Part shown: positions 11,177-61,153 of the stretch, piece after piece
Layout of the letters: each line of letters begins with the position of its first letter
Numbering within the stretch: position 1 is the first letter of the stretch
Assembly: GCA_030295235.1 (NCBI GenBank)
Contig: AP026146.1
Coordinates: 1-64,000, forward strand
From: Fistulifera solaris
Lineage: Eukaryota; Bacillariophyta; Bacillariophyceae; Naviculales; Stauroneidaceae
Length of the DNA: 64,000 nucleotides
Direction: 5' to 3'
Program-made: the position numbers and the translations under genes
The notes under the pieces: model-generated
Seen by the model: the letters and a program-made list of their open reading frames with translations, nothing else
Told to the model about the DNA's origin: nothing
Databases searched by the model: none

Positions 11177-11217
11177 GATGAGATCTTTTTCTGTCAATCA
11201 AAAAGGTTCTCGTTCAT
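11177..11217 (+). promoter_or_regulatory. Conserved upstream box of DUF6174-like gene 3
   Basis: Second copy of the ~40-bp box at 8145-8184: GATGAGATCTTTTT, CTGTCAATCAAAA, TTCTCGTTCA, about 110 bp before the ATG of gene 3. Confidence 0.4.
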
Positions 11218-11323
11218 CGGCAAGTAAAAAAAATCGTTTGACCAGCAGCCAACTTGACAAGCTGCCAAGGTGAGGACGCAGCAACCTACCTTTCGATCAT
11301 ATGAATTACTTTCATGGCGCAAG

Positions 11324-12769
11324 ATGGTTTGTTTCATGTCACTTGTTCGGATGCTTGCTTTTACTGTCGTGGCGGTGACGCAAGCGCAAAATGAAAATCC
11401 AGCGAAAGCCATTTTCTGTGCCGAATGGGAGCTGAATGCCAAGGCCTTTAAAGAAGCGAGTGCTGCATGGAAGGAACCTCCGTGTTATTCATTCATGTAT
11501 AAAGACTTGTCGGCATATTCGGACAGTATCCCTTACGTAACGACTGTACTGAATGGGGAGACGGAAGGAGAAGAGGAGTGCCCACTCATTAGGACACTTC
11601 AGGATGTTTGGGATTTAATTCGAATTTGTTGCTATTTCGAAGAAGATTGCCCGTTCGAATATGGTAGTAGCTGCAGAGTTGAATATGCACCAAGTAACGA
11701 CACCGGCCTCGTGTACCCGGCATTCTTCAATATTTCGGAATATGATATATACCGGATTGATAATGTTAACACGGTGAACTGCTCTGTGCGAGAACCGATG
11801 GTCTGTATGGATTGGGAAATAAATGTTCCGGCCTATGAAGAAGCGATTGCCAAGTGGAGAGAACCTGCTTGCTACAGCTTCACATACGTTGATCAGATGT
11901 ACACGAGTTATCTGTCGACGCCACAATTTGAATTTGTGCAAACGGTGCGAAACGGAACTGTCTTGTCAGCGTATGGAGACGAATCGATGGGCTGGTTCCT
12001 GCCGTTTGCAACTTTTGCTGATATCTGGAATGAGATCGATGAGTATTGTGTACGCGATTGTCCTACAAGTGGAGCTCTTGCGTGTCAAATCCATTACGCT
12101 ACAGATGCCGAGAGTGGTATCATGTATCCGTCCTTGTGGAGCATCAACTACTCGAGAGAACCCGGTGACGAGATTAGCTACGCGATGAGCGTAATGCCCT
12201 GTGTCGATCGAAAAGCAGGAGTCTGCGTTGATTTTGAACGAGTCCACAATGACTTTTTTTGCAACGAGCTACTTCTGGAACACTTATCTCGGGGGAGAAA
12301 TTCCTTCTTGCTACACGTATATCATTCGAGGTACGGTGGATGGAGCAACCCACGACCCCTTTCCAGTTTTTGTTCAGGATGGAGTACCGACAACAGTAGA
12401 CGCGCCAATGACGGATATCGAAGCTGACATGGTTGTCACATTTGCGGATTGGCTGGCTGAGATTGAAAAGCATTGTATCAGAGCTTGTGCAAACAACAGT
12501 GCTTCGGAAGCCTATTACAGCTGCAAGGTATTATATGATCATGAATGGAACCTTCCATCTTACATTCTTTCGACAAGGATGGAGCGGGTGACCAGTATGA
12601 ATACGAGATATTAAACATCACTATGTATGTCTGTGATGCTGAATCCTGGAAATATCCGGCAAGCGAAACGCCGTCGATATTTCCGACAAATACCACATCA
12701 TCGGGTGCGGGTGCATCGGTGTACATTGGAGCCATTCTTGTCTTTGCGTCGCTTTATTCTGTTTCTTGA
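11324..12769 (+). CDS. Three-domain DUF6174-like surface protein, frame-broken
   Basis: Same architecture as the gene at 8287-9675: signal peptide (MVCFMSLVRMLAFTVVAVTQAQ), three repeat domains (CAEWELNAKAFKEAS, CMDWEINVPAYEEAI, CVDFERVHNDFF) and a hydrophobic tail (VYIGAILVFASLYSVS). Several NxT/S sites fit a secreted glycoprotein. Two single-base breaks interrupt it: a run of seven T at 12254-12260, where six would keep frame, and near 12562-12570, where one more base restores SFDKDGAGDQYEY. Both are in domain 3. The two genes share domain order and upstream sequence, so they are tandem duplicates. Function unknown. Confidence 0.65.
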
Positions 12770-13303
12770 AACGGAGAGCGGTATTGCCAAATTCATCTGT
12801 TTGTTACTTCGATTTCTTTTTTTACAAATTATTACCTGACTATTCATTCATGTATTGTCTTATAGATTAATTTCAATTTGGTGACCTCTTTCATCTCTAG
12901 CACCTTAGCTACAAGCCGGAAAGTTGAGAGCGACGAGCTACACTAGAGAGTAGTCTCGCCGGTGTCTTCACTATCCGTGAGCCGTGAGTCGTGAGTCATT
13001 ACCGGTATGGTAAGTGCGAAACGAGTAAGGATGGGAAAACGTGGTGGTGCTCGGACATACCAGGTTTCTTGCGTTTATCATTGCAAAAAGTCTCTTTCGA
13101 AAACTTCGCACGCAACAAACGACCGAGCATAAGGATCGGCTTCTCATCGATCGTGTGAAAGGGAAGCGCTGATTTGATCGACAGCAACAAGTAGATAATA
13201 AGAACAACATCATTTCATTTGATTGCCCGTATTTATCAGAAAGTCGACGTTCATTGAAGCCTCGTCTAGTCTATCGCTTCTCAGCAGCCGACAATCCTCT
13301 ACA
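12770..13303. other. Intergenic
   Basis: About 530 bp. Contains a short imperfect GTGAGTC-type heptamer run at about 12976-12998, seen in related forms near 20340 and 49430. No gene seen. Confidence 0.4.
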
Positions 13304-15988
13304 ATGATCTACTCCAACCTCTTTTTTACTTTCATGGCTTCTTTGTGTCGTCTCTGCACAGGAAGACGAAGTGATACAGCTTACAAACGAGCCATGTGTC
13401 GACTGGGAAGCCACGGCAGCGGCGTATCAAGAGGCGTTTGCGGAATGGCAAGAATCGGAATGTTACACGTTCACTTACACGTTTTTGGGATTTTCCGTCG
13501 GAGAACCTGGCAGTGTCACGCGCACCGTGCGCAATGGGGTTGCCTTAGAACAAGACGACGATCAGCCCTTTGGTACTTTGACGGATGTCTGGAAGTTGAT
13601 TGAGGAGCGGTGCATTCTAAATTGCCCGGAAAATGGAGCTCATACGTGTGATATTGAATTTACGACACGTGAGGACGGCAATCTCGTATATCCTGCTTTC
13701 GTTAGCATCAATCCGGATGCTATGCTGATGGATGAAGAACTGATTTACCGTATTCACGATGTACGGACTTTGGATTGCGCAGAACTTGAAATGGAGGAGG
13801 GAGAAGAGGTAGCAATCAAGGCTGATGTCTGCCTGAACTACGAAACCGTTAAGACGACTTTGGAAGCGGCTTTGCTTCAGTGGGAGAATATCACCCGAAC
13901 TTGCTACAACTATACAATAGAACGCGTTGGGCGCGTGACCGAAGACTTTCGCGGACCCTTTCGGATTGCCGTGCAAGAGGGTCAAGTTGTGGAAATAATC
14001 AGTGCCACCTCACAACCTGACATGAATCGAACCTTATCGAATTGGTTACAGGAAATTCAGACCATGTGCGTAGATCGCTGTCGAGTTGACAATGATGAAG
14101 ATCCTTATTACGATTGCACGATTGAATACGACGAGACAATGGGATACCCGACATATTTTGTTCTTGATTTGGATCAATTCATTGTCGATGAGGAACTCTA
14201 CTACAGAATCACAAATTTTTCGAGTTGCGAAGGTGATTTTGACGACGTTTCGAATTCCGCAGTCTGTATTGATTACGAAACTGTCAAAACAGACTATGCT
14301 GCGGCGATAGAAAAATGGAATTTGATTGATGACTGCTACGACTACTTCATCGAGCGACAAGGTCGTATTTCAGATGAGTTCCGTGGTCCTTTTGAAGTGC
14401 AAGTGCGGGATGGGGTGCCGCACGTTATGAATATGCCCAGCAATAGCGATGGTGCTGAGAGACCGAACATGACGTTCACGTTGTTGGATTGGATGACGAA
14501 AATCGACGAGCACTGCGTGGCTGGATGTGAAGTGGCAAACAACGAAGATGCGTATTATTATTGCTCTTTAGAGTACCATTCAACGTGGGGATTCCCAACA
14601 TCGATCTTCTTTGACCCCGACGAAAATATTGCAGACGAAGAACTTTATTATACCGTATCCAATTTCACACCGTGCGAAAGCAGAGTAGTTCCAGAAACGG
14701 ATTATAACGAAACATCCAATTGTACGTATCAGACGGATGATGCCTACGAGTTCGAGGCAGCATATGCAAAGCTAGAGACATTGTTGACAGACAATCTTTG
14801 TTATGACTTCACGTACGTTGAGACGGGGTTCTTGTATCCGCCACCGCAGCCCGTGATGGTTCGCTTTCGAGATGATTCAATCCCTAGTCAAAGCTCGGAT
14901 GATGAATTTGCCTCTTTGTTGGAGGTGATGAGCTTCTACAGGGAAACGTGCTTTCCATGCAATGATACGGCTCGACCTTTGCTTGCAGCATTACTTATGA
15001 TGATCTCGGACTTCCTAAGGCTTTATTGATTGATTACGTTGAGATGCTGGCGGATGAGGAGATGGGTTATACCATTAGCAACGTAACGTTTGTACCGTGC
15101 TCAGAAGACCCTTCGCAGCAGAATTGTGACCCTGAATGGAGGGTCGCCAAGGAAAAGTGGTCGAGTCCTGCGTGTTATGATTATTCCATTCGTCGCGTGG
15201 GAGAAATCCCTGTTGAACGAGAGGGAACATTCGTTGTGAAAGTGAGAGATGACAAAGTGATCAATGGTACGGCTTTGTCCGTCAACATGACTGTTGATGA
15301 TCTGTTTGCTTTGGTGGAAGAAAAGTGCATCGCTGGGTGTCCCGATACGGAGGCCTACCAGTGCGCGAATACATATGATGCTGAGTTCGGCTTTCCAACT
15401 CAAATAAGCATCGACTACGATGACCTTATGGCTGACAAAGATGAGATTTACATCATTTCTGACTTCATAGCCGTGAAGTGTGAGTCCGGACACGAGGACG
15501 ATGGTGCGGTAACTGTGTGTCAAGAGTGGGAGCACTTAAGAACTGAGCTTGAGTCGATCGAAGACAACTGGGAAGACCCGCCTTGTTACCAATACACAAT
15601 GAAAAGAAATAACGAGTCGGCACTTACGGTTCATGTGCGAAATTTCACGGTCGCATCGCCGAAACCGCAAGGCAGGGATGATGAGTCGTGGATACCCGTT
15701 ACAGTCGATGAGTTTCTTGTTGGAATTCGTGCGTCATGTATCGATGGATGCCCATCCATGGGAGTTGCAAATTGCAGTCATGAAACTAGCGGAGAAGATT
15801 TTATGGGCAGTTGGGTGATTACTACAAAAACATTGACAACCAGTTTTGCGATTTCCGATTATAAAGTCGTTTCGTGTGACGAGAAAATAGTTACGATTGC
15901 TGAAGATACACCGTCGTCAGCAGCGGTTGCCAAAGTTTCCTTCGCGATTGGGCTTGTTGCTACAATTGTCTTTCTTTTTAGTAAGTGA
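13304..15988 (+). CDS. Six-domain DUF6174-like surface protein, frame-broken
   Basis: The largest member. The ATG at 13304 leads into a signal peptide if the T-run at 13322-13327 is five rather than six bases (then ...FLLSWLLCVVSAQ). Six tandem domains follow, starting at CVDWEATAAAYQEAF, CLNYETVKTTLEAA, CIDYETVKTDYAAAI, TYQTDDAYEFEAAY, CDPEWRVAKEKW and CQEWEHLRTELESI. Domain 5 is closest to bacterial DUF6174 as I remember it (YDYSIRRVG, VRDDKVINGT, TVDDLFALVEE, YDAEFGFPTQISIDYDD). Another one-base break lies near 14985, inside domain 4. The C-terminus (AAVAKVSFAIGLVATIVFLFSK) looks like a GPI signal or anchor. No catalytic motif is evident. Confidence 0.68.
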
Positions 15989-16275
15989 GATCTTTGACAT
16001 TGAAGGAGGATTGCAACGGTTTACGCTGCGTCTTTGAAAGCTACTGATTTGCAAAATGGCAATGAAGTTATGTGCAAGCGTTGACAGCACAAAGCATCAA
16101 TAACTATCGCGCCAGTGTCACATTATGATTACTTCACCCAGCTGTGAACGTCGTCTTAGGCGCTCGGATGATAAAAGTCCACGAAAGATGAGCTGTCTCA
16201 TGTTATAATCACCTCGCATGATACATGTTAGCATTGACAAGGTGTTCACAAATGTGCTTCATGATTAATTCGTGA
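15989..16275. other. Intergenic, probable deletion boundary
   Basis: About 290 bp; the next gene begins in the middle of a domain, so its 5' part has been lost here. No signal-peptide exon is visible. Confidence 0.4.
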
Positions 16276-17978
16276 GGCGGGACATACAGGGTCAACCAAA
16301 TGATGCCAACGGAACCAGTCACTCGCACAGTCAAGTATGGCCACCCGGTCGGAACGGGCGATGCTTCGACGTACAAGACCATCGACGAGTTCTGGAACTC
16401 GATTGAAACATATTGCATTCGCGACTGTCCTACCGACGGGGCCCACACATGCGACATCAAGTATTCAAGAGATGAGGAGGGTGGTTTCATGTATCCCGCG
16501 TCCATCTTCATCGATTTCGACGCAGCTGTCTACGACGAGGAGCGAAGCATTACCATCACAGATGTGCGTTCCATCGCTTGTTCCGACGAAGAAACAGAAG
16601 GCGAAGAAGTCGCGCACGAACCTTGCGTCAATTGGGAGTCGAATGCGGCGGCCTACGATGAAGCCTATGCTCAATGGACGGCACCTTCTTGCTACACCTT
16701 CACTTACGCGTATACTATTGCAGAAATGATCAAGGGACGATCCCAAGAACGGTTTGTGAAGAATGGCCAGCCGGTACAGATGAACTATCCGTATCCCGAA
16801 ATCGAAACTATCGACGAGTTCTGGACACTCATTCAAGAGAGCTGCATTCAAGATTGTCCGATCAGTGGCGCACATTCGTGCAACATTGAGTATACAATGA
16901 GTGACGACGGCAGCTTCATGTTTCCATCATCCATCGAGATTGACTTCAATTCCTCGTCCGCCGCCACCCAGGACACACATATTTACAATCTTTTCAACGT
17001 GAGCTCGGTCGATTGTTCCGATATACAAGAAATGGAGAATCAACTCTGTGTCGATTGGGAGTCGACTGCTGCTGCATATGAAGCCGCTTTTGAGCAGTGG
17101 ACGGCCCCTTCCTGCTACAGTTTTACTTATTCGTTTGCCAATTCTACCATGAACAATCGTGAAATAAAGCGTTCTGTCCGAGATGGAACATCATTGCTGA
17201 ACGGAGACGAAGGGGCGTTGCATACACTCGACGACTTTTGGAATTTGATCCAAACCAACTGTATACAGGGCTGTCCAGACGAAGGAGCACATTCTTGTAC
17301 CATTGAATATATTATGAATGAGGAAGGCGGCTTTATGTATCCCATGGAATTGTACATCGATATGGATGCGAGAATCTTCGGTAGTGACACGTACCGTATC
17401 TACGATCTTCGCGTTGGAGAATGTCCTGAAGTCGAAGAAAAAGAAATCACCGACGAAGAGCTCAACGAACCGTGTGTAGAATGGGAGACGACTGCCGCTG
17501 CGTATGAAGATGCTTGGGCGCAATGGGAAGCTCCATCCTGCTACACATTTGGCTTTTCGGTTGACGGAATCACGCCCTCTGTAACGCGCACCGTCGTCCA
17601 TGGCAAATCGTTGGCGGAAGACGAAGAATCATCGTTTTCAGAGTTGCAGACTCTCGACGACTTTTGGCAGTTGATTCAAAGAGAGTGCCTTCAAGACTGT
17701 CCTGTCCGTGGAGCTCATTCTTGCAGCATCGAGTACACGATGCATGAAAAGGTGGCTTTGTATTCCCCCAAGTTATGGATGTCGTTCGAAACTCCTTTGA
17801 TGGATTCCTTGGTCGAATTCAAAATGTACAGGTAATTCCTTGTCCCAAAGAGATAGACGAAGTTGACAACGAGAGCGAAGAGAGCCGTAGCAGCAAGCAA
17901 AAGATGAAGAAGCCGAAAAGAAGGGGAAGAAAAGCAGTTCTTTGCGCAAGAATAGAAAATTGTTCCGGAAGTAAATGA
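16276..17978 (+). pseudogene. 5'-truncated four-domain DUF6174-like gene
   Basis: An open frame enters mid-domain at TYRVNQMMPTEPVTRTV; the expected start (signal peptide, CVxWE, CYxFT) is absent upstream and a TGA precedes it at 16273. Three complete domains follow (CVNWESNAAAYDEAY, CVDWESTAAAYEAAF, CVEWETTAAAYEDAW). These are more alike than the domains of other genes, suggesting recent internal duplication. A one-base break at the A-run 17747-17750 switches frame; the continued frame reads GGFVFPQVMDVV and ends in a basic tail (KMKKPKRRGRK) with no GPI-type hydrophobic end. It lacks both secretion signal and anchor, so it is probably a pseudogene unless transcription starts from an unseen upstream exon. 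Confidence 0.6.
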
Positions 17979-32649: not shown

Positions 32650-35578
32650 CTATGATAGTCCACCCTTCACAATTTCGTTTGCCTTTTCTACCAATTCCCT
32701 TAACGTCTCATTTAGACGCTGAAGCTTACGATTTCTATCCGTCTGCTCCATGGCTTCTTCCTGCAAGCTTTCCAAAGACATGCGCTCTCGTTCCCGCTTC
32801 CTTCGAGAAAGAATGATGGTCATTCGGCGCTTCCTCTCGACCTTTTCTGAGTCTTCCTCTTGCAAAAGAAGCTTATTGCGAGGAATCAGGTATCTAGCTG
32901 AAAGTTCTTCTTCCCTGCTATTCGTGAACAGACCCCATTCGTATCGGACTCGCAGCTCTTGCCACTTCACAAAATCGTCGAAACCTAGTAGACCAAACAA
33001 TGCCTTGGGTAAGCTTTCTCTTGAATAGCCATAGTCTAAGAGATTTTGCAATAAATCTTCTCTCGAAGTACCGACATGGGTTTCCACAGCAGGCGCACCC
33101 AAGACTTGTTGAAAATCCAATACCCTCTTTGTCTTGTTCAGTCTAGCCTCCATCGAGCTTTCAACTAAAACGTCCGCTGGGCATAGGTCCAAACCCAGAA
33201 TGTGAACTTCATGAACGCGAACAGGCATTACAGGCAGTATCGTATCTACAAAGTGCTCTTTGAAAACGCGGTCGAAGCTTGGGTCTGACCAAAAGTATAA
33301 CAAATTGAACCCTTTCATTTGAGATATAACGTTCTCGGACATGATGGAAAGCATGTAAAATTTGCATCGGGCTCGCGATGAGCTAAACGTGGACTTTTGT
33401 AACTTTGTACCATCACAGTACAGTACGCTTTGCCCGCTCTCGACACATGGCAACTGCATAAGGTAGCCGGTCTGTAGAACAGTAACATCTTTTCGCTCGA
33501 CAGCGCCCTCAAAAGTTTGGTTAAGTGGAAGAAAGGCGCGATCGCCAAACAAGTCCTTTCGTACTTCCCAGTACTTTGCGTACATATTGGCAGCCTTTGT
33601 AGCGTTGCAGTTTGTAAATCGTAAAAATCTTTCCCAAAGACTTTCCTGCTCAGACAGCTCCGGAGCTTTATCTAGCGCTTCTAGATAAGCAGCTTTGTTT
33701 CCATTGGGAATCAGTGCCAATGCAGTTCGCATGGCTTTGATTGCCGATGATGCCACTTCATTTGTGACCGAAACTTCACCATGGTTTTCCTCCAGTCTCT
33801 GACACAAAAGGAACTCCATAGGCCCATCCTGTCCACCTGCTTTCTTCGGAAGACCTTCACTGGTCACGCCCAAAGCCTCAAACTTTTGATGCATCTCCTC
33901 TTGGGCCTCGACACCGACCGAAAAATGTATATTCTGATCTTCACCGAACAAAGTTGTAAACATCCGGACGAGAAATTTACAGCAGAATTCAGTGAATACG
34001 CTCCATCCGGATGGACAAGAGATGATCTGAGTAGTAGTGGGTCTAACTGGAAAGCTTGCTTTAAAAATCTCTCCGGCTTGTACTACGTTTGCTCTCCATC
34101 TTGAATCGATGATGGGAATCTCGATGTGAGAGACCATTGGTATCCCAATAAACTCACCACGAATCGACTTAGGATTTTTAACACTTTCGACGCAACATAA
34201 TACAGCACTTTGACACGCATTTTGAGATCCACTTCGGGATCAGAACTCATCTTCAAGAGAGGTTCTCCACACCAGACCGAGCGACCACAATTACCATTCC
34301 GCAGCAGAAACTGCGATCCTAGTTCCAACGCCATTTCCCCATCAGGGCCCATAGCTCCATTGATCGTCATTGGTAGGAAGGCTCGGTCTCCAAACATATC
34401 AACACGGTACTTCCAATAATTGCAAAGTCGAATAGCCTAAGAACAAAGTGGGCATGGGGCATGAGAGGATTTCATTTTCCATACAACGCGCCAATGCCAA
34501 TGCAACGTACCGCAGCCGCATAATTAAAATCATCAAACTCCAGAAATCTTAATGGTGGTGACTCTGCTTCCACCAAGTCAGGAGTGCGCTGAATGGCTTC
34601 GATGTAGGCAGTTTTATCGCTTTCGGGAAGGAGATCAATGGCTCCGTGAAGACATTCTAAGTTGAAAAGCGTGGCATCCGATTTATGATCCATAATCAAT
34701 GAAGTCAAAGCGTTTGCTGCAACAAATCCAAATTGTGCTAAAAAGCGAGGGTATTCGACACTGGACTGGTAGTTACCCCCCTAGCGTAGGAGGCAAGGCA
34801 TTGGGAAGTATACCGTGTGGTATCAATTTCACCAAGGCTTGCGCCGGAGTCTCGCAGTGGTGCACCACAAAATGACAAGGAATAAATTGCCACGTACGGA
34901 AAAGAGATAAGCATTCTCTACAAACCCTAAATGAGCGTCAGCATCCAATACCAGGTGAATTGCTTTGAGATGAGCCGGAAAAGCTTTCGAGCTAAGCTCC
35001 ATGGTCTTCGAAGCGACCCTATTCTCGGTCCGTTTTGAGGTTCTAAAGTGAATCACGACCTGATAGCCTTTTCCATGCAAAGCGTTGACTCGATGTCGCG
35101 ATAGAAGCTGAAGAATGAAAAAGTAGCGGCGAATGGTCGACTCGATCGAAAATTCGATTTTGTCGGGCTCTAAACTGCGATCAACAACCACCGTATCTTC
35201 CGCGGTAAGCTGAAAGCTTCCCGTTGAAAATAGCATTAAATCTTCTCCTGCGAGAGCGCCATTCCCGCTCAAGTCTAGAACAGGGAGAAAGGCCCTTTCA
35301 CCAAATAGTTCCCTGCGCTTTTCCCAGTAGGTGATTATACGCGTTGCGGCATTCCAGCTGTTGAAATCCGCAAAGACGAGAAATTGCATCGGATCTGACT
35401 CGGTCTGGACGAGTTGAGGGCATCTTACGAGTGCTTCTCGATACGCCGACTGCTGTTGAAGAGGTATTTGAGCAAGGGAATCGTGAAGTTGTTCGAGGGC
35501 GCGGCGATGCCATATCAAATTGGAAGCAGCTGCTTCGGCTTCCGTCGCGGCGAGTACTTGCGAATAATCAAGCATCAT
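32650..35578 (-). CDS. CRAL-TRIO-like/bZIP-like protein, copy 1, frame-broken
   Basis: Tandem paralogue of the gene at 35976-38994. Three modules each begin with an ALIPxxxKxAYxEAL...P.L...ES...FL.F.....AA helical segment and continue through YWExRRxLFGxRAFLPL into a ~180-residue alpha/beta part, resembling CRAL-TRIO (Sec14) N- and lipid-binding lobes. The last ~75 residues are highly basic then heptad-like (KRRMTIILSRRKRERERM, NRKLQRLNETLRELVEKAN), as in a bZIP. Start at the tandem ATGs near 35578. A 73-bp GT-AG intron (34438-34510) matches that of copy 2. Unlike copy 2, the frame breaks at about 34855, 34783 (six-G run) and 34175-34179 (T-run), each by one base. A signalling-lipid-responsive transcription factor is only a guess. 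Confidence 0.62.
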
Positions 35579-35975
35579 CTTTTGATTGCTTTTAAAATCT
35601 TCTAGAGCGCTGGCTCGCAAAATACAAGGTCGCAATTCCTTAACAACGCAAAAGAAAGGTGCAAAACACACGAACGCGTGATGTTTCGTGCTTCCGGCCT
35701 TGTGCGGCGCAAGGGGAGTCAGTCACGTTTGATTGGGTCCCGACTATGAGCTGATAATACTCAGCGAGTTTTTAATACTGGGTACTATCTCGTTATTTGT
35801 TACTAAAGCTAAAAAGAAACTATCTCAGGGAAATATATAAAATCGACTAAAAGGTGGTTAAAGCGACAAGGAAGAGAAAACAAAAAAGCATCGCAAACTA
35901 TGATTCCCGTACTTTGTAATTCACTAATTATTACGATTCTAATCCTATGGTAGACCATAGTGTTGATCCCTTCTA
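35579..35975. other. Intergenic between the tandem copies
   Basis: About 400 bp, upstream of copy 1 and downstream of copy 2. Nothing recognisable. Confidence 0.4.
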
Positions 35976-38900
35976 TTACAACGGTGTGTTTTTGATAAGA
36001 TCATTCGCCTTTTCCAACAGATTCTGTAGTACTTCATTCTGACGCTGAAGCTTACGATTTCTATCCGTCTGCTCCATGGCTTCTTCCTGCAAGCTTTCCA
36101 AAGACATGCGCTCTCGTTCCCGCTTCCTTCGAGAAAGAATGATGGTCATTCGGCGCTTCCTCTCGACCTTTTCTGAGTCTTCTTCGTGCAAAAGAAGCTT
36201 GTTCCGTGGAATCAGGTATTTAGAAGATTGCTCTTGTTCCCTGCTGTTTGTAAATAGACCCCATTCATACCGAACACGTAGCTCTTGCCACTTAACAAAG
36301 TCATCAAAACTGAGTTCGCCGAACACGGTCTTGGGTAGACCCTCCTTTGAATACCCGTGGCTCACCAGCCGTCTTAAGAGATCTTCTCTCGAAGTACCTA
36401 TATGTGCATCGACTGAGCACAAACCTACAGAACGCTGAAAATCCAAAATATGCATCGTCTCCTTCAACCTAGCCTCCACCGAATGGCCATCATCATGGCT
36501 CGCGTCCCTTGAGTTCATATTAAGTGCCAAGACATGGACGTGGTTGACGCGAATTGGCATTACCGGTAAAATTGTTTCGAAAAAGTGATCTTTGAACACA
36601 CGATCAAAACTAGGATCGGACAAGAAGTACAACAGATTGAACCCTCTCGTCTGCGACAAAGGATTCTCGGCCATGATCGAGAGCATGTAGAATTTACATC
36701 GAGCTCGTGATAAGCTCGATGACGACCTTTGCAGCTTCGTACCGTCGACGTAAAGAACACTCTCTCCACTTTCGACACACGGCAACTGCATAAAGTATCC
36801 GGTTTGCAAAACAGCAACATCTTTGCGCTCAAGAACACCTTCGAAGGTTTGATTAAGAGGAAGGACGGCGCGATCACCAAACAGTTCCTTTCGAACTTCC
36901 CAATAATTTGCGTACATGGTGGCGGCTTTCGTAGCGTCACAGTCTGTAAATCGTAGAAAGCATTCCCAAACACTCTCTTGGTCAGCAATGTTGGGGCATT
37001 TGTTGGCTGCTTCTAGATAAGCTACCTTGCTTCCATCTTGGATACAAGAAAGGGCAGTGCGCATGGCTTTAATTGCTGACTTGTTCACTTCTGTTGCGAC
37101 TGAGCTTATATTCCGGTTTTCCTCTCGCTGTTGGCGAGAGAGGAATTCCGCAGGTCCTTGCTGTCCTCCTACTTTTTTAGGTAGACCTTCCTTCGTGATG
37201 CCTATCGCTTCAAACTTTTCTTGCAGCTGTTTTAGCGATTGAGAATCGGAATAAACATGGATATTCACAGGGTCGCCGAGCAAACTTGAATACAATCGAA
37301 GGAATATACTGATGACAATGTTTGATAGGGGGCCCCCAGACGATTTGTAGATCACTTGTGTACCTGCTGGTCGAATAGGGAAGCATTCCTTAAACATTTT
37401 CCCTGACCGAATAAGATTTGCTATCCACCTTGGATCTATTAGAGGGATTTCAATCTCGCTGATCAACGGTATCCCTATCACTCCGTTACGAACAGAGTTT
37501 GGATTCTTGAATATTTTGGAGGCAATGTAAAAGTACATCTTCGCACGCATATTGTAATCCACTTCGGGATCGGAGTCCATTTTCAAAAATGATTCGGCAC
37601 ACCAGACCGTGCGACCGTATTTATCATTTTGTAGCAAGTAATGTACTCCCACCCCCGCAGCCTTTTCACCATCTGGACCCATTGCTCCCTTAAGTGTCAA
37701 CGGTAGCAGGGCACGATCACCGAACACGTGGAAACGGTGTTTCCAGTAATTGCAGAGACGTGTCGCCTTAAACACCGTCATAGACATGAGATACACTAAA
37801 GCAAGCTGTAGAACAAAAGTTGCAATGACAACGTACCGCAGCCCAAGCGTCACAATCACTAAATTCCATAAACAACGTAGGAGGCGACTCGTCTTCCACT
37901 AAATCCGGCACTCGTTGCATTGCTAGGAGATAAGCAGATTTATCAGTGTCGGGAAGCAGATTCATGGCTTCTTTAAACGATTCCATATGACGAGCACTGA
38001 CTCCTCCCGCGAAGTCGTGATCCGAATGTGTGCTCGAGGTTAGCGAAATGCTGGATGCGTCGCACATCACCGAGCTCTCATTTCCCGATCGCGAAGTAAA
38101 CCCAAGCTTGATGAGGAATCGGACAAAATCGACTCCGAGATTGTACGTCCCGCCCAGGGAAAGAGGCAGCGCACTTGGCAGTAAACCATGGGGTACGAGC
38201 TTCATCAAGGCTAGCTCCGGTGTCTCACAGTGATGTAAAAATAAATTACAGGACGACATGCCCCATAACTTACACAGGAGCGACACGGCATTTTGTATGA
38301 AACCCAGCTGAAAGTCAGCCGCAAACACCATATGAACCGCTTTGATGCGAATGGGGAAGGCCGTGGTGCAAATTTCGGACGATTTGGCGGCCACACGTTG
38401 ATCCATCAACTTGAAACGTTTATACCGCACTACGAATTTACAGCCCTGCATCGCGACCACTTGATGTTGGGCTAAGAGCTGATACAGGAATACATTGCGG
38501 CGTATTTGCGACTCGATGGAGAGTTCGGCACATTCGGGCTCCAAGCTGCGATCGACGACTACCGTATCTTCTGCCGTGAGGAGAAAACTTCCCGTTACGA
38601 TGAGCTGCACATCCTCCGCAGTCAGAGCGCCATTTCCGCTCAAATCCAATAGAGGAAGAAAGGCTCGCTCGCCAAAGACTTCCCTCCGCTTTTCCCAATA
38701 CGTTACTAAGCGTTCGGCGGCACTCCAGAAGTTAAAATTTGCAAAATGAAGAAATTGCATCGGGTCGGATTCGGTCTCGACGAGTTGCGGGCATCGTACG
38801 AGAGCTTCTCGATACGCCGACTGCTTTTGAAGAGGTATTAGTGTGAGAGAGTCACGAAGTTGTTCGAGAGCTCGACGCTGAAAAAAGAAACTTGAAATAG

Positions 38901-38994
38901 CCGCTTTGACATCATCTTGCGAAGACTGTTGATTTTGCGTTGCGGCATAAAACATTTTCAAAATTAAAATGCGATTTTTAACTTGCGTCTGCAT
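35976..38994 (-). CDS. CRAL-TRIO-like/bZIP-like protein, copy 2, intact
   Basis: Exons 37837-38994 and 35976-37766, with a 70-bp GT-AG phase-0 intron, give 982 residues without interruption. Module 1 (RRALEQLRDSLTLIP...YWEKRREVFGERAFLPL), module 2 (MESFKEAMNLLPDTDKSAY...YWKHRFHVFGDRALLPL) and module 3 (AIKAMRTALSCIQDGSKVAY...YWEVRKELFGDRAVLPL) share the same layout; the intron cuts module 2. The C-terminus has a basic block (ERKRRMTIILSRRKRERERM) and a heptad segment (NRKLQRQNEVLQNLLEKAN) as in bZIP factors, although the usual basic-region Asn is not evident. 'CRAL-TRIO-like' is inferred from pattern, not alignment. An alternative start is the ATG at 38955. This copy shows the gene structure is real and can be used to judge copy 1. 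Confidence 0.68.
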
Positions 38995-50135: not shown

Positions 50136-50300
50136 CTGGAGACTGCGGGAAATATGATAACTATGAAAACTGGAAATAACACGAAAAAGATAGGCATTGA
50201 TGTACCTGTAAAATGTCCTTTGAATCAAGGCGCACTGTTGATTTTTCTTTAAAAAACAGAAAAAATACAAAAAATGCGATTTTGAATTTTTCCTGGATGC
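50136..50300 (+). repeat. Left inverted-repeat arm
   Basis: Starts CTGGAGACTGCGGGAAATATGATAA and matches the reverse complement of 57249-57090. The outer ~52 bp agree at about 49 positions, the middle is weaker, and a second strong block (AAAATACAAAAAATG, GATTTTGA) lies ~127 bp in, at the equivalent place in both arms. Confidence 0.7.
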
Positions 50301-50681
50301 GAACTCTGAATTCGCAGAGATTGTAGAAAAATTGCACACTGCAGTTGCCGGTGCAGTACTGTGCTACGTGCTACGTACCAAGTACGAGACGGTCATACGG
50401 ACCAACAACAGAGACTGAAATCCTGACCTCAGTCGTGGTTCGTAGTGCTGAAAAAATCGTGCAGCGTGGAGCGTGGAGCCTACAAAGTACAGTGGAAACG
50501 ATACACAAGCACATATATGACAATGCCACCATCCTGGCAACTGGCAACGACATTTGGCGATAGAGTCCTCGACTCCGTACACACACAAACAGAAAGTTGC
50601 GATTTGTCACGCTCTCGCACATTCAGCCATTCAGCTGTCAACAAGTAGAATTTTTCTTGGTGATTGGATCATCAAGTTACG

Positions 50682-51612
50682 ATGAAGATACAGTTTAATT
50701 ATTCTTCTAATCAGACTAGAGAGTTCTTGAGAAGTGGGTGTTTCATAATGGGCGAGTCGCTGGACATGCGCAGCTACAAGCCCACTTTGGTTCAAACGCG
50801 ACGCTTCATGTCGCACTTTGGCGTATCGCCAACACAATGCTCTCAGCTGTGGATCTTATTGAAAGTCCCTGAGAATGGACGCTTCAAGCATCTGCTTTGG
50901 GCCCTACTGAAATTGAAAGTTTATGCAACAGAGGAAGTTTTAAGTGGCATGGCCGGATGCGATGAAAAGACCTTTCGAAAGTGGTCCGACCAGTTTATCA
51001 CTGCACTGGCATTGCTCTCTACTCGATTGGTAAGTCTTTTGCGCTGATTACCTGTTGCACTTTGTATATCGCTAACAATATGTTTTCTTATAGATAAAGT
51101 GGAACAGCCGAACGAAATCTGGTATTCATACATTTTCGGTTGATGGGACTGACTGTCCGATTAACGAACCGAGTCCGTTTTCGCCCAAATGGTATTCGCA
51201 CAAATTCAGAAGCGCCGGACTACGTTATGAAATTGCTGTCTCGCTTTTTGACAGTGAAATGATCTGGATCAATGGCCCTTTTCCTTGCGGGGAATTTCCT
51301 GATTCAAAGATTTTTCGACGAAACCTTGCCGGTCAGCTTTCGAAGGGTGAAAAGGAATAGCAGACCAAGGCTATCGTTCGATCTCCCAGCTGACAATAAA
51401 AAAATCGTGGTCATCAGAAAGGGAAATTGATTTTGATTGGAAAAGCTTTGGCGCGTCATGAAAACGTAAATCAACGAATTAAGCGGTTTGGATGTCTGCG
51501 CCAGCAATTCCGACATGAATTGAAACGGCATGTTTATTACTTCCGAGCAGTTGCATCGGTTGTACAGCTTCGACTAAAAACCGATAACCCTATCAACTCT
51601 CTACCGAAGTAG
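50682..51612 (+). pseudogene. PIF/Harbinger-like DDE transposase, broken
   Basis: Exon 1 from the ATG at 50682 to 51029, a 64-bp GT-AG intron (51030-51093), then the catalytic part. Helical N-terminus with EEVLSGMAGCDEKTFRKW, then FSVDGTDCPINEP (first Asp), WYSHKFRSAGLRYEIAVSL, IWINGPFPCGEFPD and, after a frame shift near 51355, ADQGYR (second Asp). ALARHENVNQRIKRFGCLRQ supplies the Glu. The order and spacing fit DDE_Tnp_4 transposases. At least two frame changes separate the segments, so it is not active as it stands. It lies just inside the left arm of the inverted-repeat block and may be what mobilised it. Confidence 0.72.
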
Positions 51613-51739
51613 ACACTAAAGTAGATAAATATCATTCAATTAACCTATAGCATGCAAACTTTAATCGAATGAATGAGAATAGGCGCGCAATTTATTCTTC
51701 TTCAGATTTTTGGTTCTTGGTGGGTGCCTTCCTCAAGGA

Positions 51740-53071
51740 TTACAGGTGCGAATCAAGGGCTTTTCGGTTTCTTGGCAGTGTGAACAAGGTTACTTGAAGT
51801 TTGGTTGCCCTCGTACACAACAATCTCCCCCCGTGCCTCGGTTCCTTTCCAGCGTCAACACTCGTACTGAAAAATTCAAAATCACGTTTTCCCAGTGATT
51901 CGTAATTCATTTCCACGTCAATTGGCACTTGATTTAGAGCCAATGCTTGTTCAGCTACGTCATCTGAAGGATTAGCTGGTATCGCAGCTATCGCCCTTGA
52001 GAGAGATGATGGTCGGGTAGGGCGGAGATTCGCGAGTCTTGCTGCAACACTTGGTATCTCTGCTGTTTCTCCTATCTTGATGGTATACCAAGCACCCATA
52101 TTCTCGTTGAATGCTGACATCAGTCCGTCGTTTGTCCCAGGTAGGTTGCCATGCACTTCGGATGTAACTAGCTGGTCTGCTGTTTTCTTTTGTGAATCCG
52201 TCCAAGTCTGGTCGAACGTTGAATCTCGGCCGCGGCTTTTGACCTTGCGGCTCATCTCATAAGACGCATCCGACACAAGGGCTTTGGTTAGTGAGCCACC
52301 CGAGCTTACAATGGATCTTTTCGAAAGCTGCTGTACAACAGTTTGCTGCTCCACGAAAGTAGAAATAAAAGAATCCTCGCTGTGTTCCTGCTTTGCTACA
52401 GTGACATCGCGTGCCAGTGTTTGAAAGACAGGCTGGTGGTTCGGTTGCTGAATCATGTCAGCCACAGATAGCTCGTTCAAAGCCATTTGCGGCTCCTGGC
52501 TCGACTCAGTAGAAGGAGTCGTGTCCATTCGATCCGGCATAGAAAGTGTTTTGAGCTGGCCGTGCTCCTGACCTACAAAGTTCAAAGAGTTACTTTCCAT
52601 TTCAATTGCTGCAACAGTATCTGTTTCTTCCCCAGATGTATTGTTCCTTCTAATGATACGGAAGGCTTGAGAATCAATATCATCCATTCTTTTCAGTGTG
52701 ACCGTGCCTTCTTCGATAGTCTCACGATGCGAGAACAGTATCTTCTTGCTGTCACCTTTGAGTTCCTTCATTTTCAGCCTATGCGCAACGACAAGCGGGT
52801 GATCCTCGCTTCTATTGCCGTAGTTGACAAAGAAATCGTCGCGGAACATGGCAGAGTCCGTGATGTCAATCATAATTTCAGTCCCTTCTTCATCAACACA
52901 ACATTCAACAATTTCTCTACCATATGCGGTTCGTTGACGGAGACCAGAAAGAAGGTTTGTGTATTGTGAAATGCGAAGATTGGCATGCCTATCATGCCAG
53001 CTATATATGAGGGACGCGGGAAGTTTCCCCTCAATAATGACGGTCTCTTCGCTCTCGCCAAACTCAGACAT
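51740..53071 (-). CDS. Unknown protein, member A of three-gene family
   Basis: 443 residues in one frame from the ATG at 53071; the upstream extension to 53194 lacks an ATG. The N-terminal ~110 residues (IIEGKLPASLIYSWHD, SQYTNLLSGL, EIMIDITDSAMFRDDFF, HPLVVAHRLKMKEL) match the N-terminal part of member B (54127-54766), and more weakly a block of member C. The rest is hydrophilic, rich in S/T/E/Q, without a recognisable domain. Cys-poor, no signal peptide or membrane segment, so probably nuclear or cytosolic. The family is new to me. Confidence 0.62.
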   Translation of the reverse strand: MSEFGESEETVIIEGKLPASLIYSWHDRHANLRISQYTNLLSGLRQRTAYGREIVECCVDEEGTEIMIDITDSAMFRDDFFVNYGNRSEDHPLVVAHRLKMKELKGDSKKILFSHRETIEEGTVTLKRMDDIDSQAFRIIRRNNTSGEETDTVAAIEMESNSLNFVGQEHGQLKTLSMPDRMDTTPSTESSQEPQMALNELSVADMIQQPNHQPVFQTLARDVTVAKQEHSEDSFISTFVEQQTVVQQLSKRSIVSSGGSLTKALVSDASYEMSRKVKSRGRDSTFDQTWTDSQKKTADQLVTSEVHGNLPGTNDGLMSAFNENMGAWYTIKIGETAEIPSVAARLANLRPTRPSSLSRAIAAIPANPSDDVAEQALALNQVPIDVEMNYESLGKRDFEFFSTSVDAGKEPRHGGRLLCTRATKLQVTLFTLPRNRKALDSHL

Positions 53072-54126
53072 GGTTTTCGTGATATTTGTGTATTTTTGAA
53101 AGTTGGTGAGGCTTCTGAGATTCCGTAAGAATTTGGGCTTGACTGGAGAATCGGATTTGAGCTGTGACAAGAATGATGATGGCGGAAACCGCAACAGGCA
53201 GTGCGCACCAGCGTGTCGTCCTTTTCATCTCATCATCATCACACGAAAAACACACACACTCGAGACGACTCCTCCTCCTCCTCGAGACTGTCCAATCCAT
53301 CACTCAACACCTCAACACTCAACACACACACACACACTCGGTACACTAGAATGAGGGGAAGCGAAACTGGGAATGGAGCTACAGTAGAAACTCAGAGTAT
53401 GCATCTTGATCAGTAATCAGTCGTTAATGTTGACGGATCGAGTATCGAGTATCGAGTATGACAAAGGAAGAAGCTAGTTTAGAAAGATACAGAGAAATTG
53501 ACAGTTCAACGTGTTCCTTGTTCTCTATATACATTTTGTACTGAAATCATAACTTATTACTGAAAACATTACAGAAAAGAATACCATAACATACCAAGAC
53601 ATAACATAACATAACATAACATAACCTAACCTAACATAACATAACAAAACATAACATAACATAACGTGTCTGAAAAATGTACTCGTGAATCGAGTAGAAT
53701 CTACACAAAAGTTGTACCATCTTTTTTTCGAGTAGTAAAAACATAACTGAACCTAACTAAACATAACAAAACATAACATAACATAACATAACATAACAAA
53801 TCATAACATAACATAACATAACGTAACAAAAAACATAAAATTCCTTTGGCTCATTAGTACAGTGTACTGGGCTTGTTTAATCTATAACTATAGAACAATG
53901 AAGCGTACCAAGTGAAGTTTGATATTCATCATTATTATTTTACAGAAGACACACACACTTCGCAAGTTCTGGGCTTTTTTCGCTCCTTTGACAAAAGACC
54001 GAGCACGAGCAGTGCGCCCGCAGCAAGCACTCACTATGCAAATCGCTGCGATTCGTTGACCTTGGCCAAGCTCATTTCAATTGCATCTTGCATCTTGTTG
54101 ACAATGTCCTCTTGAAAAAATCCATA
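53072..54126. other. Intergenic with simple repeats
   Basis: About 1.05 kb between divergently oriented members A and B. Contains (CAC/ACA) and (CTC) microsatellites at 53241-53340, a GAGTATC trio at ~53439-53458 and the pentamer arrays listed separately. No gene seen. Confidence 0.5.
53584..53838. repeat. (CATAA)n pentamer arrays with CCTAA variants
   Basis: Two blocks, about 53584-53665 and 53740-53838, of CATAA/ACATA pentamers, with CCTAA units at 53624-53634 and 53751-53756 and occasional CAAAA. The unit is 5 bp, not the 6-bp telomere unit of this chromosome. Confidence 0.9.
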
Positions 54127-54766
54127 ATGGCTGGTATGTAGCGTTCCTGTTTGATCGGCTTCAACAATTTCTTGCTAACTGATCCGTTTTCTTTGATGCT
54201 TCGACCCAGACTACGACGATAACGACGAACGTGTGAGAACCATTGAAGTCCCTGTCAAACTCCCAGGCTCACTCCTTTACAAATGGGAAGACCTGGAGTA
54301 CAAGCGATTGTCACAGCAGACAGTTCTGCTCTCTGGTGTTGACCAAGCGGATGTCCATTGCTCCATTAACGAGTCTCGGACCGAAACTGAGATTCGGATG
54401 AAGGGGGACAATTCGTACATGATGATGCCTGCAGAATTCTGGCGTGCTGTGTCACGCAACAACGGGGCTGCTTACTCGGAAACACACCCAAAGGTTGTCG
54501 CCCATATGAAGGCTATCAAAGACCTCAAGACGACATCAATGGCAAATTCTATTGTTTATGTTCACAAGCAGAAACTACCAATGGCGGTACTACCTAACTT
54601 TTGTTCGATTGCGGAGGAGTATCCGAGTGGATCTCGCATTGCTTTTATGGGAGCGCGGAACTGTCCTGAGATTACAGCAGGTTTGGAAATGCAAGGAGAA
54701 TACGACGGTTTCTATTCTCCTTTAGCTCAGGGTGCCAAACGCAATATTCGCATGCCTCAAACTTGA
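54127..54766 (+). CDS. Unknown protein, member B of three-gene family
   Basis: Two exons: a 7-nt first exon (54127-54133, ATGGCTG) and 54210-54766, joined across a 76-bp GT-AG intron that restores MADYDDNDERVRTIEVPVKL. 187 residues. The opening acidic segment then VPVKLPGSLLYKWEDLEYKRLSQQTVLLSG parallels member A (IIEGKLPASLIYSW...SQYTNLLSG), followed by TEIRMKGDNSYMMMPAEFWR and ETHPKVVAHMKAIKDL. It lacks A's long hydrophilic C-terminus. The tiny first exon is supported by the start and phase matching member A's layout. Tail-to-tail with member C, 82 bp apart. Function unknown. Confidence 0.6.
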
Positions 54767-54848
54767 TGATAAAGCAATCTAGCATCAAATACATTACGAT
54801 ATACTATAATAGTTGTAGAAATATATACTAGACAAAGCCAATCAGCTT

Positions 54849-56255
54849 TTATCCTCGTAAGCGTTTAAGCTGTGGCGTGATTCGTATCAGTCTTGTAATG
54901 AGAGCCATCTTCGGCTGGCCAATAGGAACCGTCTTTGTCTTCTTTCCGTCATCCTTCTCCTTTTCATCTGTCTCATTCACAGTCTCAACCGGAACTCCTT
55001 TCATCAGATGGTCAACAAAGTCGCGTAGGTTCTTCGTGCGGTCGGTCTCGCAACGTAAGACTTGCGTTTCTTGGGGTCTCGGTCAATGTCCATTTCATCG
55101 CCTTCATCATCATCTTCCGAGCGTGGAACATTTGCCGCAGCACCAGTGGCCGTTCCATCATTTGTAGCTACTACTGGTTCGTCATCATAACAAGTATCCC
55201 ATGCGACAGAAACGTTGTGGCTTTTGAATCCCTTTGCAAGGGCTTCCTTCATCTCCATGACAACGTATTGCTCTTGACTACCGTCTACTCCAATTTTGAG
55301 CATGACCAGCTGCTCGACCGTCGGGATATCAGGATTCCACTGAAGTTCGACTTCAAAAGGCAATTGGATGCGGCACTTTTTGATGATGCGCTTGCGAGGG
55401 TTGTTGTTCTTGAGAAGACGGACTGCAGTGTGGTGTCCGACAACTTTCACGTGCTCTGTACCGAATTTGGCGCGACCCCAGAATTTGTCGTAGAATTTGA
55501 TAGGATCATGGATAGTATCGTCAGTCACATCAATAGCGATTGTGGCTGTGAGGGAATTTTCAATGTACGCGGTGACGTAGCTCTTCAAACCACTTCCTGG
55601 AGCTGGAGTGCGCAGAAGCCTGCAGGAAGGCGTCGCGATAACTGTCAGATTCTGCGCCTGGTTTGAACCCATCCATCCGATCACAAGGTTCGGCAGCACG
55701 ATTTCTTCCGAGTCTGGCTTCTTGATGTCTTTCTTTGGTGTTGCTTTCTTCTCAGCATCACCTTCCGGATCCAAGTTCATGCCTGTAAAAAATGGAAATT
55801 TGTCAGATAGAAGAAAAAAATCTAGAAGCAGAAGAACGCTTACCACCGAATTCATTGTCTAGATCACCCAAACCGGCATCGCCGTTATCATCATCGTCGT
55901 CGTCGTCACCACCACCTTCGTTTCCCGCATTTCCCCCATTTCCCGCTGCTCCGGCCTTTGCAAGAATTTCTGGGTCGACTTCGTTGGTGTCCAAGATTTT
56001 GAGCCACTCTTTTTTCTTCCCATTCCAATTCTTCCGAATCTTATCAAGATTGGCGGTAAAGTTGGCCAATTTGTATTTGAAGAGAGGGCTCATGGCTCTC
56101 ACCTCTGCCGGTCCTTGACCACCAGCAGATTTACTTTCGACTGAAATCATCTTCTTGCTCAGCATGAAGATGAGAGTGTGCCAGCCCTTTGTACCCTCGC
56201 CCCATTTCGGAAGATTCGCATCAACGTCGTCGTCGTTGTCGTTTTTCTTTGGCAT
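54849..56255 (-). CDS. Unknown protein, member C of three-gene family
   Basis: Exon 1 (55844-56255) encodes an acidic N-terminus (MPKKNDNDDDVDANLP), a segment WHTLIFMLSKKMISVESK...FKYKLANFTANLDKIRKNW and a Gly/Asn/Asp run ending GDLDNEFGG. A 61-bp GT-AG intron (55783-55843) leads to GMNLDPEGDAEKK and the core VLPNLVIGWMG...TATIAIDVTDDTIHDPIKFYDKFW...EHVKVVGHHTAVRLL, which echoes members A and B (LP.L.Y.W, D.A.F...F, HP.VVAH...K.L). A basic patch (DPKKRKSYVARP) is NLS-like. A one-base break near 55045 is likely, since the other frame continues as DRTKNLRDFVDHLMKG and ends at 54849; the current frame stops at 55004. Function unknown. Confidence 0.58.
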
Positions 56256-57089
56256 TGCTGATAAGATCTGTTGTTATTGTCGTTTGAAATGCGCCGCAGA
56301 GTGATTTGTGATTATTTGTGGGAGTTCCCGGCCCTCGTGATAATTGAAGGTTGACGATCAAAGTGCGAGATGGAGAGAGGAAGAGAACGGCAATTCTTCC
56401 ATGAAACTCTCCTACTACTTAAGAGAGTCTCAATGGAGACTGTAATGCTTAGCGTGGAAAAGGACGATGTCGCCAAGACCACCTACTATTCACGATATAG
56501 AAGAAGTCACGAGTGCGAGCCGATCATATGACAGTACCGCGTTCCAAATTGAATTGTTAATTGTTACTGCAATTTCTCTCACAGTCGGCAGTCGGCATTC
56601 GGCATACAGAAATCAATTTGCGGCAGGTGGCACTAGTTGAATGGGCTTATGACGCGGCAGGCTATAAAAATCAAAGCTATTTTTGATCATTGTTACTACA
56701 TAAAAATTTCTTGAATGGTGCGTGGCAGTTGGCAGTGTTACTTCGCAACTTCCTACTTCTGACTCCAGACTCCAGACTCCAGATCGTACAATAATCCTTT
56801 ATTCCTTCAGACTTCACACTTCACACGCCGCACTCGACAGTCAATCACAGGAAGACACAGAAACTGAATGTGCTACAATGTGGATGATAGTGAACAACGA
56901 CGATAAGAACATCGAGATTTTTATTTACCTTTGAGTTTGGACCCTCGACTGCTCGACTCGGCTCAAGGTTTTCCAATCTTGTGTCGTCGGTCCGTATATA
57001 CGTCACAGGCATCGGCAGCGGACTGACGGCCTCATTCGACTCCAGTAACGCTGAAACCGCGCTACCAGGTAAGCGTGAGCTAAGTTCTC
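56256..57089. other. Intergenic upstream of member C
   Basis: About 830 bp. CAGACTC units repeat at 56762-56782 (GACTCCAGACTCCAGACTCCAG). No supported gene. Confidence 0.4.
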
Positions 57090-57249
57090 AGCCACGAAAA
57101 ACTCAAAATCTCATTTTTCGTATTTTGATCTATTTTTATGTAAAGTAGCAGCAGTTTGTCCATTTTTCGAAATTTTGCAGTTGAATTAAACAATAAATTT
57201 TCATGTTATTTCCATTTTTCATAATTATCATATTTCCCGCAGTCTCCAG
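57090..57249 (-). repeat. Right inverted-repeat arm
   Basis: Reverse complement of 50136-50300: outermost CTGGAGACTGCGGG reads from 57249 leftward, and the second conserved block lies at ~57095-57130. Confidence 0.7.
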
Positions 57250-59665: not shown

Positions 59666-61153
59666 CTAGTTCGTGTTAATTTGTAATATCACTTCTTCTA
59701 CTTTTAATGTCTTCGGCGGTTGTGGAATTGGTCTTCGTTCTCCCGTGATAAGTACATGCCTTAACATAGCCTCACGAGGCAACTCTCCTTCCTGGCGTTG
59801 ATTGATTCTTTCAGCACTCCTTCTTGAACGTAGATCATCGGAAGTGGTGACCACCACCAACAATGATGTTGGTAACGATTCACGAGTGCCTGTAACGGCT
59901 TCTGTCATCTGGACCGATCCTTGCTGATTGAAACGAATGTGAATCTCGTCCGCATCATCCGGGGGCAACCTCATCTTTCTCATCAATGCAAAAGTTATGC
60001 AGTTTAGCCAAAGCAATTACCAAACGAATGGTCTTCCCGATACTAACACCCCTTGGCATTGCGCTACGCAAAATCCCCCAGCGTTGGACAAGAATACCGA
60101 AGCAACACTCGACCACCAATTCGGGAGCTGTGAATGGAAAAAATTGTACCAATCCTCTGGACCCCCTGACACGTTCGGGATAGGGAGTAGCAAGGAAGCG
60201 TGTTGACGTCGCGTTGTCTCCAAAAATGCAGAGACCTTCCGCTAGGTAATTTGGGTCTTCGTCACACTTACTCCACAGATGGCTTGCTTCGAAAGCCAAT
60301 AAGTCAGATGTAGACCCGGGATACACGATCGATATATCTAAGATCTTGCCATAAACGTTGCTAACGGCCTGGCAGTTCAGACCAAACTTGTGCTTTCGAT
60401 AGCAAAAAAAACTTACCGGCGTCAACATCTGCTGCGTTTGCGTCTTTTTCAAAAGGACGATGAGTCCAGATAAGAATTCCATCTACTGCTCCAGCACATC
60501 CCGAAAAGCCCACGTTGGATTTTTTCTGAAATTCGGCTGCAATCTGAAGCTGCTTCTCATGATCGTCAGGATAACTAATCTCCATGACTGGGCAAGCATT
60601 GATGGCTTCGACAACATACCAAACGCTGTACATGCAGTCCGTAAAACCAACTCCATACAATGGAGACAAATCATACATAGAGCCTCCCGCAAAGTAGCGA
60701 AGCTATGGCAAGTCGCACCTGAGTATCAATTTTCCCATTTGGAGGCAGCGGTACGAATGTACTTGTGATACTGGACCCAACCTTTCCCCTCTTCCGGTTG
60801 ATAGAAAATTCAATGTGAGGCTTCAATTGATTGTAAAGCTTAACAAATGACACAAATGTCATTCTATAAGCGCGGCGAAAATAGTAATCACCGAGCTGAT
60901 GATAAACATCCTCAACTGAGCGTCGAGTCCTGCTTATGGTTTGTTTCCCAAACCGACTTCCTCTCCTTTGCTTCTGTAATGTCGCCACATGCATCAAAAG
61001 TAGCATGCCTACACAGGCATAATGATTTGTTGGTGACGATACCATCCTTTCTGATATTGATACCTGGTAAACTGAAATGTCGGCTTCACAAGTTGTTGGC
61101 AAATTGTGAAGCGCTCTATTGTGTTTCCGTACGACTCTGCTAAAATGAATCAC
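59666..61153 (-). pseudogene. PIF/Harbinger transposase, frame-broken
   Basis: N-terminal helices (SVEDVYHQLGDYYFRRAYRM, FVKLYNQLKPHIEF), then FSGCAGAVDGILIW (first Asp), KHKFGLNCQAVSNVYGKILDISIVYPGSTSD, LCIFGDNA (second Asp) and ELVVECCFGILVQRWGILR (Glu), followed by IALAKLHNFCIDEKDE; this is the full DDE_Tnp_4 signature. Four frame segments (breaks near 60685, 60375-60470 and 59960) interrupt an otherwise well-kept protein; the last segment extends the C-terminus to 59666. It is a different lineage from the transposase at 50682-51612. Confidence 0.85.

Follow-up and report, generated by a model that had tools for sequence, protein, structure and literature searches.

Mobilisation of elements of the PIF/Harbinger-ISL2EU-Spy (PHIS) superfamily requires two element-encoded proteins, the transposase and ORF1, the product of a second open reading frame (ORF) (PMC2836001); the same work tested mPing in yeast. 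The survey of PMC4482050 describes this second protein as Myb/SANT in most PHIS groups, among them NuwaI (Han et al. 2015), which is given as about 4.5 kb long, with ends usually GGG and a 3-bp duplication near CWG, and as occurring in animals only; Pangu, reported there from a heterokont and two algae among others, is given two genes, a second protein without known motif and an ANT duplication. Harbinger elements from Ectocarpus, a brown alga, are described with two tail-to-tail genes and a TNA duplication (PMC12477816), while in rust fungi TET-bearing PHISTA/Harbinger elements encode three proteins, with no Myb/SANT described, and duplicate 2 bp (TA); the recognisable TET/JBP dioxygenase is likely to protect some of these elements, and the accessible text describes no paralogous triplet (PMC12730594). 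Here we analyse a 7.1-kb block (positions 50136-57249) in the window, that is the whole stretch of 64,000 nucleotides from the start of contig AP026146.1 (assembly GCA_030295235.1) of Fistulifera solaris. This organism has been described as an allopolyploid with 42 pairs of homoeologous chromosomes (PMC5935921) and as an allodiploid diatom with genome-editing tools (PMC13276009), and the proteins and short introns of the window, together with paired related contigs, fit an allopolyploid diatom. The block is a DNA transposon carrying a DDE transposase gene and three related genes, A, B and C, which probably represent a triplicated and diverged helper taking the place of the usual single helper in a PIF/Harbinger-like (PHIS) element. 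No description of a Harbinger-type element with such a paralogous triplet was found in the open-access literature searched.

The genome searched was the one containing the window (51.7 Mb in 61 contigs, cited below by number). The inverted arms noticed in the sequence-only reading are real, the outermost 52 nt (50136-50187 against 57198-57249) showing 94% complementarity; a second matched block at greater depth (50388-50410 against 56982-57004) is weak, with 23 nt at 78%. Either arm led to eight places in the genome, which are the two ends of four near-identical 7.1-kb blocks: the one in the window, C10:8353-15506, C6:1898783-1905896 and C8:935232-942296. A pattern search with the terminal 22-mer gave ten sites with 0-1 mismatch, forming five inverted pairs, the fifth of which encloses a strongly diverged, older block of 6.8 kb (C8:729.6-736.5 kb). 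Two further sites with three mismatches, against four matches of the reversed control up to that level, were left out of the count of ends. Ends are always paired, with no solo arm among the sites with 0-1 mismatch. The four young copies are 17-60 substitutions apart over 7.1 kb, with ten substitution columns outside one patch, and lie in flanks unrelated to one another. Their alignment shows that similarity ends just inside 50136-57249, the element proper being 50139-57246 and the outermost three bases on each side the duplicated target.

A related second version of the insertion regions is present in the same genome. A search with the joined flanks returned 41 matches, consisting of the elements' ten own flanks, six counterpart sites and 25 short repeat matches, the last of which were not used. 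Clear empty counterparts were found for four elements, on C34 for the window copy (85% identity), on C7 for both the fifth element (84%) and the young C8 copy (87%), and on C9 for the C10 copy (69%). The counterpart of the C6 copy consists of two short pieces of C5, one matching 91 query bases at 82% and the other 28 at 93%; the junction is spanned by the latter alone, with seven bases on the left. The sites lacking the block therefore number four clear ones and a fifth on a short match. A segmental duplication, or a low-copy host gene cluster that never moved, could account for there being just five copies in 51.7 Mb, but the unrelated flanks, exact paired ends, empty counterparts and 3-bp duplications leave it hardly any probability, and duplication of a host cluster is refuted by the pairs of filled and empty sites. 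The initial proposal of a DNA transposon is thus upheld by paired ends, empty counterparts and target duplications; the block is a recently mobile cut-and-paste transposon, of which past mobility and boundaries are demonstrated.

The sequence-only reading had found no target-site duplication. The pairs of filled and empty sites reveal one of 3 bp, of the form C-N-G and mostly CWG, which had escaped notice because the two sides of the window copy differ, one reading CTG and the other CAG. The flanks read CAG/CAG in the C6 copy, CCG/CTG in the young C8 copy, CGG/CGG in the C10 copy and CAG/CAG in the fifth element, so that C-N-G borders all ten ends of the five elements. At the counterparts the trinucleotide is single (CTG for the window copy, CTG for the young C8 copy, CGG for C10 and CAG for C6), and insertion therefore duplicates 3 bp; the counterpart of the fifth element has a fitting length, but its bases, TAA, have diverged. 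As a separate observation, the middle base of the duplication is unequal between the two sides in two of the four young copies (the window copy and C8:935232-942296), both with a single CTG at the counterpart. In each, though young, one side retains the base of the counterpart while the middle base of the other differs. If real, this inequality is not the product expected from simple gap filling.

The assignment of the transposase as PIF/Harbinger-like and of the DDE type is confirmed by the joined exons of an open copy, which match Pfam DDE_Tnp_4 above the cut-off (1.6e-8, 34.8 bits, cut-off 24.8). It had also been called broken, and this holds for the window copy, where the loss of one base and the gain of another, some 49 bases apart, leave stops between them in exon 2, but not for the C6, C8 and C10 copies, in which 288 amino acids are open. 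A search for the DDE_Tnp_4 family gave at least 25 matches in the genome, 24 of them over the cut-off and with the window and older copies missed; the element is one of several Harbinger-type families in this genome. A second, different DDE_Tnp_4 match (55.7 bits, in an open frame of 175 amino acids) lies on the minus strand of the window at 59994-60428, less than 3 kb from the element.

The transposase and the 3-bp duplication place the element in the PHIS superfamily: it has a DDE_Tnp_4 transposase and terminal inverted repeats with a short (0-3 bp) target duplication. It departs from PIF/Harbinger in the narrow sense, in which the duplication is TWA and the second ORF Myb/SANT: all ten ends here adjoin C-N-G, and no Myb/SANT match exceeds Pfam cut-offs in A, B or C. 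It differs likewise from ISL2EU, with its AT duplication and its THAP and YqaJ domains, in the 3-bp C-N-G duplication and the absence of any THAP or YqaJ match in Pfam. NuwaI is the nearest in target type; the two share a DDE transposase of the same superfamily, ends starting with G and a 3-bp duplication near CWG, but the diatom element ends in GAG, is 7.1 kb long, has no recognised Myb/SANT protein, carries three related extra genes and has used at least one CGG target. Set against the CWG of NuwaI, its flanks are CAG/CAG twice and CGG/CGG, CTG/CAG and CCG/CTG once each, with counterparts CTG, CTG, CAG, CGG and TAA. With Pangu it shares a second gene without known motif, differing in target and gene number, and with the Ectocarpus elements the tail-to-tail arrangement, seen here in the transposase gene and A, whereas C-N-G replaces TNA and the genes are more than two. 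The rust-fungus elements resemble it in having proteins beyond the usual two and no Myb/SANT, but are set apart by their dioxygenase, their TA duplication and the lack of a described triplet.

The positions of the genes and other features are collected in Table 1. That A, B and C are related, as had been proposed from a shared pattern of residues, is supported in agreement by profile comparison and by shuffle tests. In hhalign, A and B match with an E of 4.3e-12 (probability 97.6%), B and C with 2.7e-5 (74.4%), and A and C weakly with 0.0017 (15.5%), while none of 150 shuffles reached the local score of A-C or of B-C and none of 100 that of A-B. Over six aligned sequences, LP, W, HxxVVxH, K and EM, among others, are invariant. 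A, B and C are of common ancestry, A and C directly just weakly so, and the suggestion that a gene family has multiplied inside the element is sustained by this mutual relationship. Among the three, a first exon bearing a predicted helical module, together with an Asp run, was found in C alone, and a KKRK cluster occurs in gene C of both element lineages, while no K(K/R)x(K/R) is present in A, the one other member of the family that was scanned. The region between the head-to-head genes A and B may, as a guess, serve as a shared promoter.

Table 1. Features of the transposon and its borders, in window positions.
Feature	Position	Strand	Description
Left target-site duplication CTG	50136..50138		Identical to the counterpart empty site
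Left terminal inverted repeat	50139..50305	+	Starts GAGACTGCGGGAAAT...; match of 94% in the outer ~50 nt, 75% over the whole ~167 bp
DDE transposase gene	50682..51612	+	Exon 1 50682-51029, exon 2 51094-51612
Gene A	51740..53071	-	N-terminal shared domain LPxxLxYxW ... DITD ... HPLVVAHxxxxKELK ... EM; faster-evolving tail
A-B intergenic region	53072..54126		Genes head-to-head; CATAA-type pentamer arrays
Gene B	54127..54766	+	Exon 1 54127-54133 (splice deduced by reading), main exon 54210-54766; carries the shared domain alone
Gene C	55004..56255	-	Exon 1 56255-55844, with a predicted helical module and an Asp-rich linker; exon 2 55782-55004, with the shared domain and a KKRK-bearing acidic tail; splicing deduced by reading
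Right terminal inverted repeat	57083..57246	-	Ends ...CCCGCAGTCTC
Right target-site duplication CAG	57247..57249		Middle base unlike the left side

The diverged fifth element retains all four genes in the same order and orientation, and between the two lineages A, B and C are 58, 63 and 60% identical, respectively. The ratio of non-synonymous to synonymous substitution rates (dN/dS, Nei-Gojobori) is 0.15 in the domain of A, 0.31 in its tail and 0.19 in B; since dS is 1.6-2.8 for A and B, these ratios are rough, although non-synonymous change is clearly held back. In gene C, where 165 shared-domain codons were compared, and in the transposase, with 116 exon 1 codons, dS is saturated and gives no ratio. 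Between the two old lineages A and B have evolved under purifying selection, the chief ground for viewing the genes as likely working parts of the element. In protein searches of the genome, in which the best candidates alone are scored, no match to A, B or C was found outside the five elements at E up to 1. Capture of a host gene was considered but is not supported, no homologue outside elements having been found in this one genome. Cargo, the word used in the sequence-only reading, is accordingly probably the wrong one; because A and B are selected and homologues outside elements were not found, the three genes are better regarded as helper genes intrinsic to the element. Another explanation is that a simpler transposon, before the two lineages separated, received the three-gene block as an insertion of separate origin, either a mobile unit or a gene cluster, which has travelled passively ever since. 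The block is separable from the transposase gene, and the identity between lineages is 87% for the transposase (116 codons, exon 1) as against 57-63% for the A, B and C domains, both of which would fit such an origin. This is nevertheless quite improbable, as no repeat reaching 20 nt in length flanks the inner block, the constraint on A and B does not suit passive travel, and gene copies outside elements were not found in this genome.

In the proposed mechanism the transposase would bind the GAGACTGCGGG ends and excise the element, and insertion at C-N-G (mostly CWG) trinucleotides would duplicate 3 bp, the enzymatic steps being taken from the superfamily. The role of the second protein of a PHIS element would most likely be filled by A, B and C together, their part in transposition being inferred. 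Because it has an additional N-terminal helical module, an acidic linker and KKRK, while the transposase has no K(K/R)x(K/R) cluster, C is the best candidate to contact DNA and to carry the transposase into the nucleus. For A and B, lacking the module, we suggest a role as partner or modulator, either of C or of the transposase. A more specific version, which we put forward only tentatively and hold to be clearly less probable than the helper reading as such, is that a three-part set built from one new DNA-transaction domain replaces the single helper, with C contacting DNA, A and B module-free, and the C-N-G duplication often unequal in its middle base.

A possible view of the ancestral state is offered by a sister element on contig 7 (C7 ~79813-85283), in which two genes were seen. 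Its transposase is the next-best other transposase in the genome, with pieces 40 and 48% identical, and it ends in CGGAGCTACCCGAAAT / ATTTCGGGTAGCTCCG, next to which the flanking bases may be read as CGG/CCG. The likeness extends to the ends (GGAGCTACCCGAAAT vs GGAGACTGCGGGAAAT) and to the second protein, which is laid out like gene C, a short module containing W being followed by a long acidic stretch and then by a domain in which HHAVAAL and KLPFEVE occur. The contig-7 element differs in having one further gene instead of three, in the divergent instead of tail-to-tail orientation of its genes, and in showing no similarity to A or B. Scored against the gene C profile, its second protein beats 2991 of 3000 shuffles and all 107 window ORF pieces, and in a separate shuffle test it lay above all 200 local and 194 of 200 semiglobal shuffles. 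We take it as a lead that the contig-7 protein is homologous to gene C, the similarity in sequence being modest. Most simply, C would be the second protein of this family, descended from a single helper such as that of the contig-7 element, and A and B copies of its domain, which lost the module or never had it and may have taken over a share of the task. Comparison of C exon 1 with the contig-7 module gave no support for a common module (172 of 300 semiglobal and 67 of 300 local shuffles as high). Other Harbinger-type elements (on C7 at 118 kb, C12, C15 and C18) have a helper with one or two copies of a module W..S.AR ... PLDEEELSAEEAWE ... F.QF..RLADHR, which has no Pfam match over the cut-off; the C12 and C18 copies share 98.7% identity along 3.3 kb. 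To this module C exon 1 had appeared suggestively similar by eye before testing.

Several results weigh against the helper reading. The profile search recommended for A, B and C recognised no known domain: their matches in Pfam and PHROGs are all sub-threshold, and the shared-domain profile has no match among PDB sequences at E up to 10. The sole Myb/SANT-like match is to MADF, in the transposase and below threshold (13.2 bits, cut-off 22), although A, B or C may still have a Myb fold, if a very diverged one. Modelled by AlphaFold2 from the three paralogues of the window, the shared domain had a predicted local distance difference test score (pLDDT) of 34, and the model was discarded; that of C exon 1 alone was all helical, with a pLDDT of 54, too weak for a fold search. 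The link of C to other helpers failed in part of the tests: against gene C the contig-7 protein reached only 3.4% in hhalign and, in hmmsearch, 0.6 bits, a score exceeded by shuffles, and 144 of 200 shuffles scored as high when the six-sequence A/B/C profile was compared with it locally. Kinship of the contig-7 protein to the whole family found no support (shuffles as high were 9 of 3000 for C, 1678 of 3000 for A and 1622 of 3000 for B), nor did the identity of C exon 1 with the W..S.AR module (hhalign 2.1%; 283 of 300 semiglobal and 122 of 300 local shuffles as high). Finally, gene C is frame-disrupted in the C6, C8 and C10 copies, differently in each, and gene B in the C10 copy; in the older fifth element gene C and the transposase appear frameshifted, and no single assembled copy has all four genes open. 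Searched more widely, viral contigs held no relatives of A, B, C, the transposase or the contig-7 protein, and prokaryote genomes, in which gene C was searched alone, none of that gene.

Small indels and short clusters of substitutions between the young copies crowd, in a copy-specific manner, into window positions 54600-56400, which cover gene C and the end of B. Within these limits, chosen after seeing the differences, 44 of 58 events touch a CpG as against 26% expected, the strongest excess among seven dinucleotides; elsewhere the figures are 3 of 25 events in 50138-54599 and 0 of 1 in 56401-57247. The reading we favour is base-calling noise at methylated CpG, the alternative being CpG-directed damage, and part of the gene disruption may be assembly noise.

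These CpG-centred differences at gene C could also reflect methylation there, which bears on the main rival to the helper reading, namely that A, B and C are passengers that shield the element from threats such as DNA methylation and small-RNA silencing. The conservation of A and B and the failure to find homologues in the rest of the genome would fit this as well, and a precedent exists in the extra gene described for the TET-bearing Harbinger (PHISTA) elements of rust fungi (PMC12730594). We consider it unlikely, though less so than passive insertion, as no enzyme domain was recognised in A, B or C, and as it would leave the element without a recognisable second transposition protein, which is usual in PHIS.

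Elsewhere in the window, long ORFs related to one another are clustered at positions 8470-17835 and 32650-38994; one cluster has W...CYxFxY / Cys-rich units in repeated form, the other paralogues that resemble CRAL-TRIO proteins, an impression gained by reading.

If A, B and C are helpers, as we think probable, a helper gene has seemingly been copied, has diverged and has been kept as three, which would amount to a natural dissection of its job. The family names the residues that are conserved in it (LP, W, HxxVVxH, K and EM), and the matched filled and empty sites make activity and target choice of the element directly testable.

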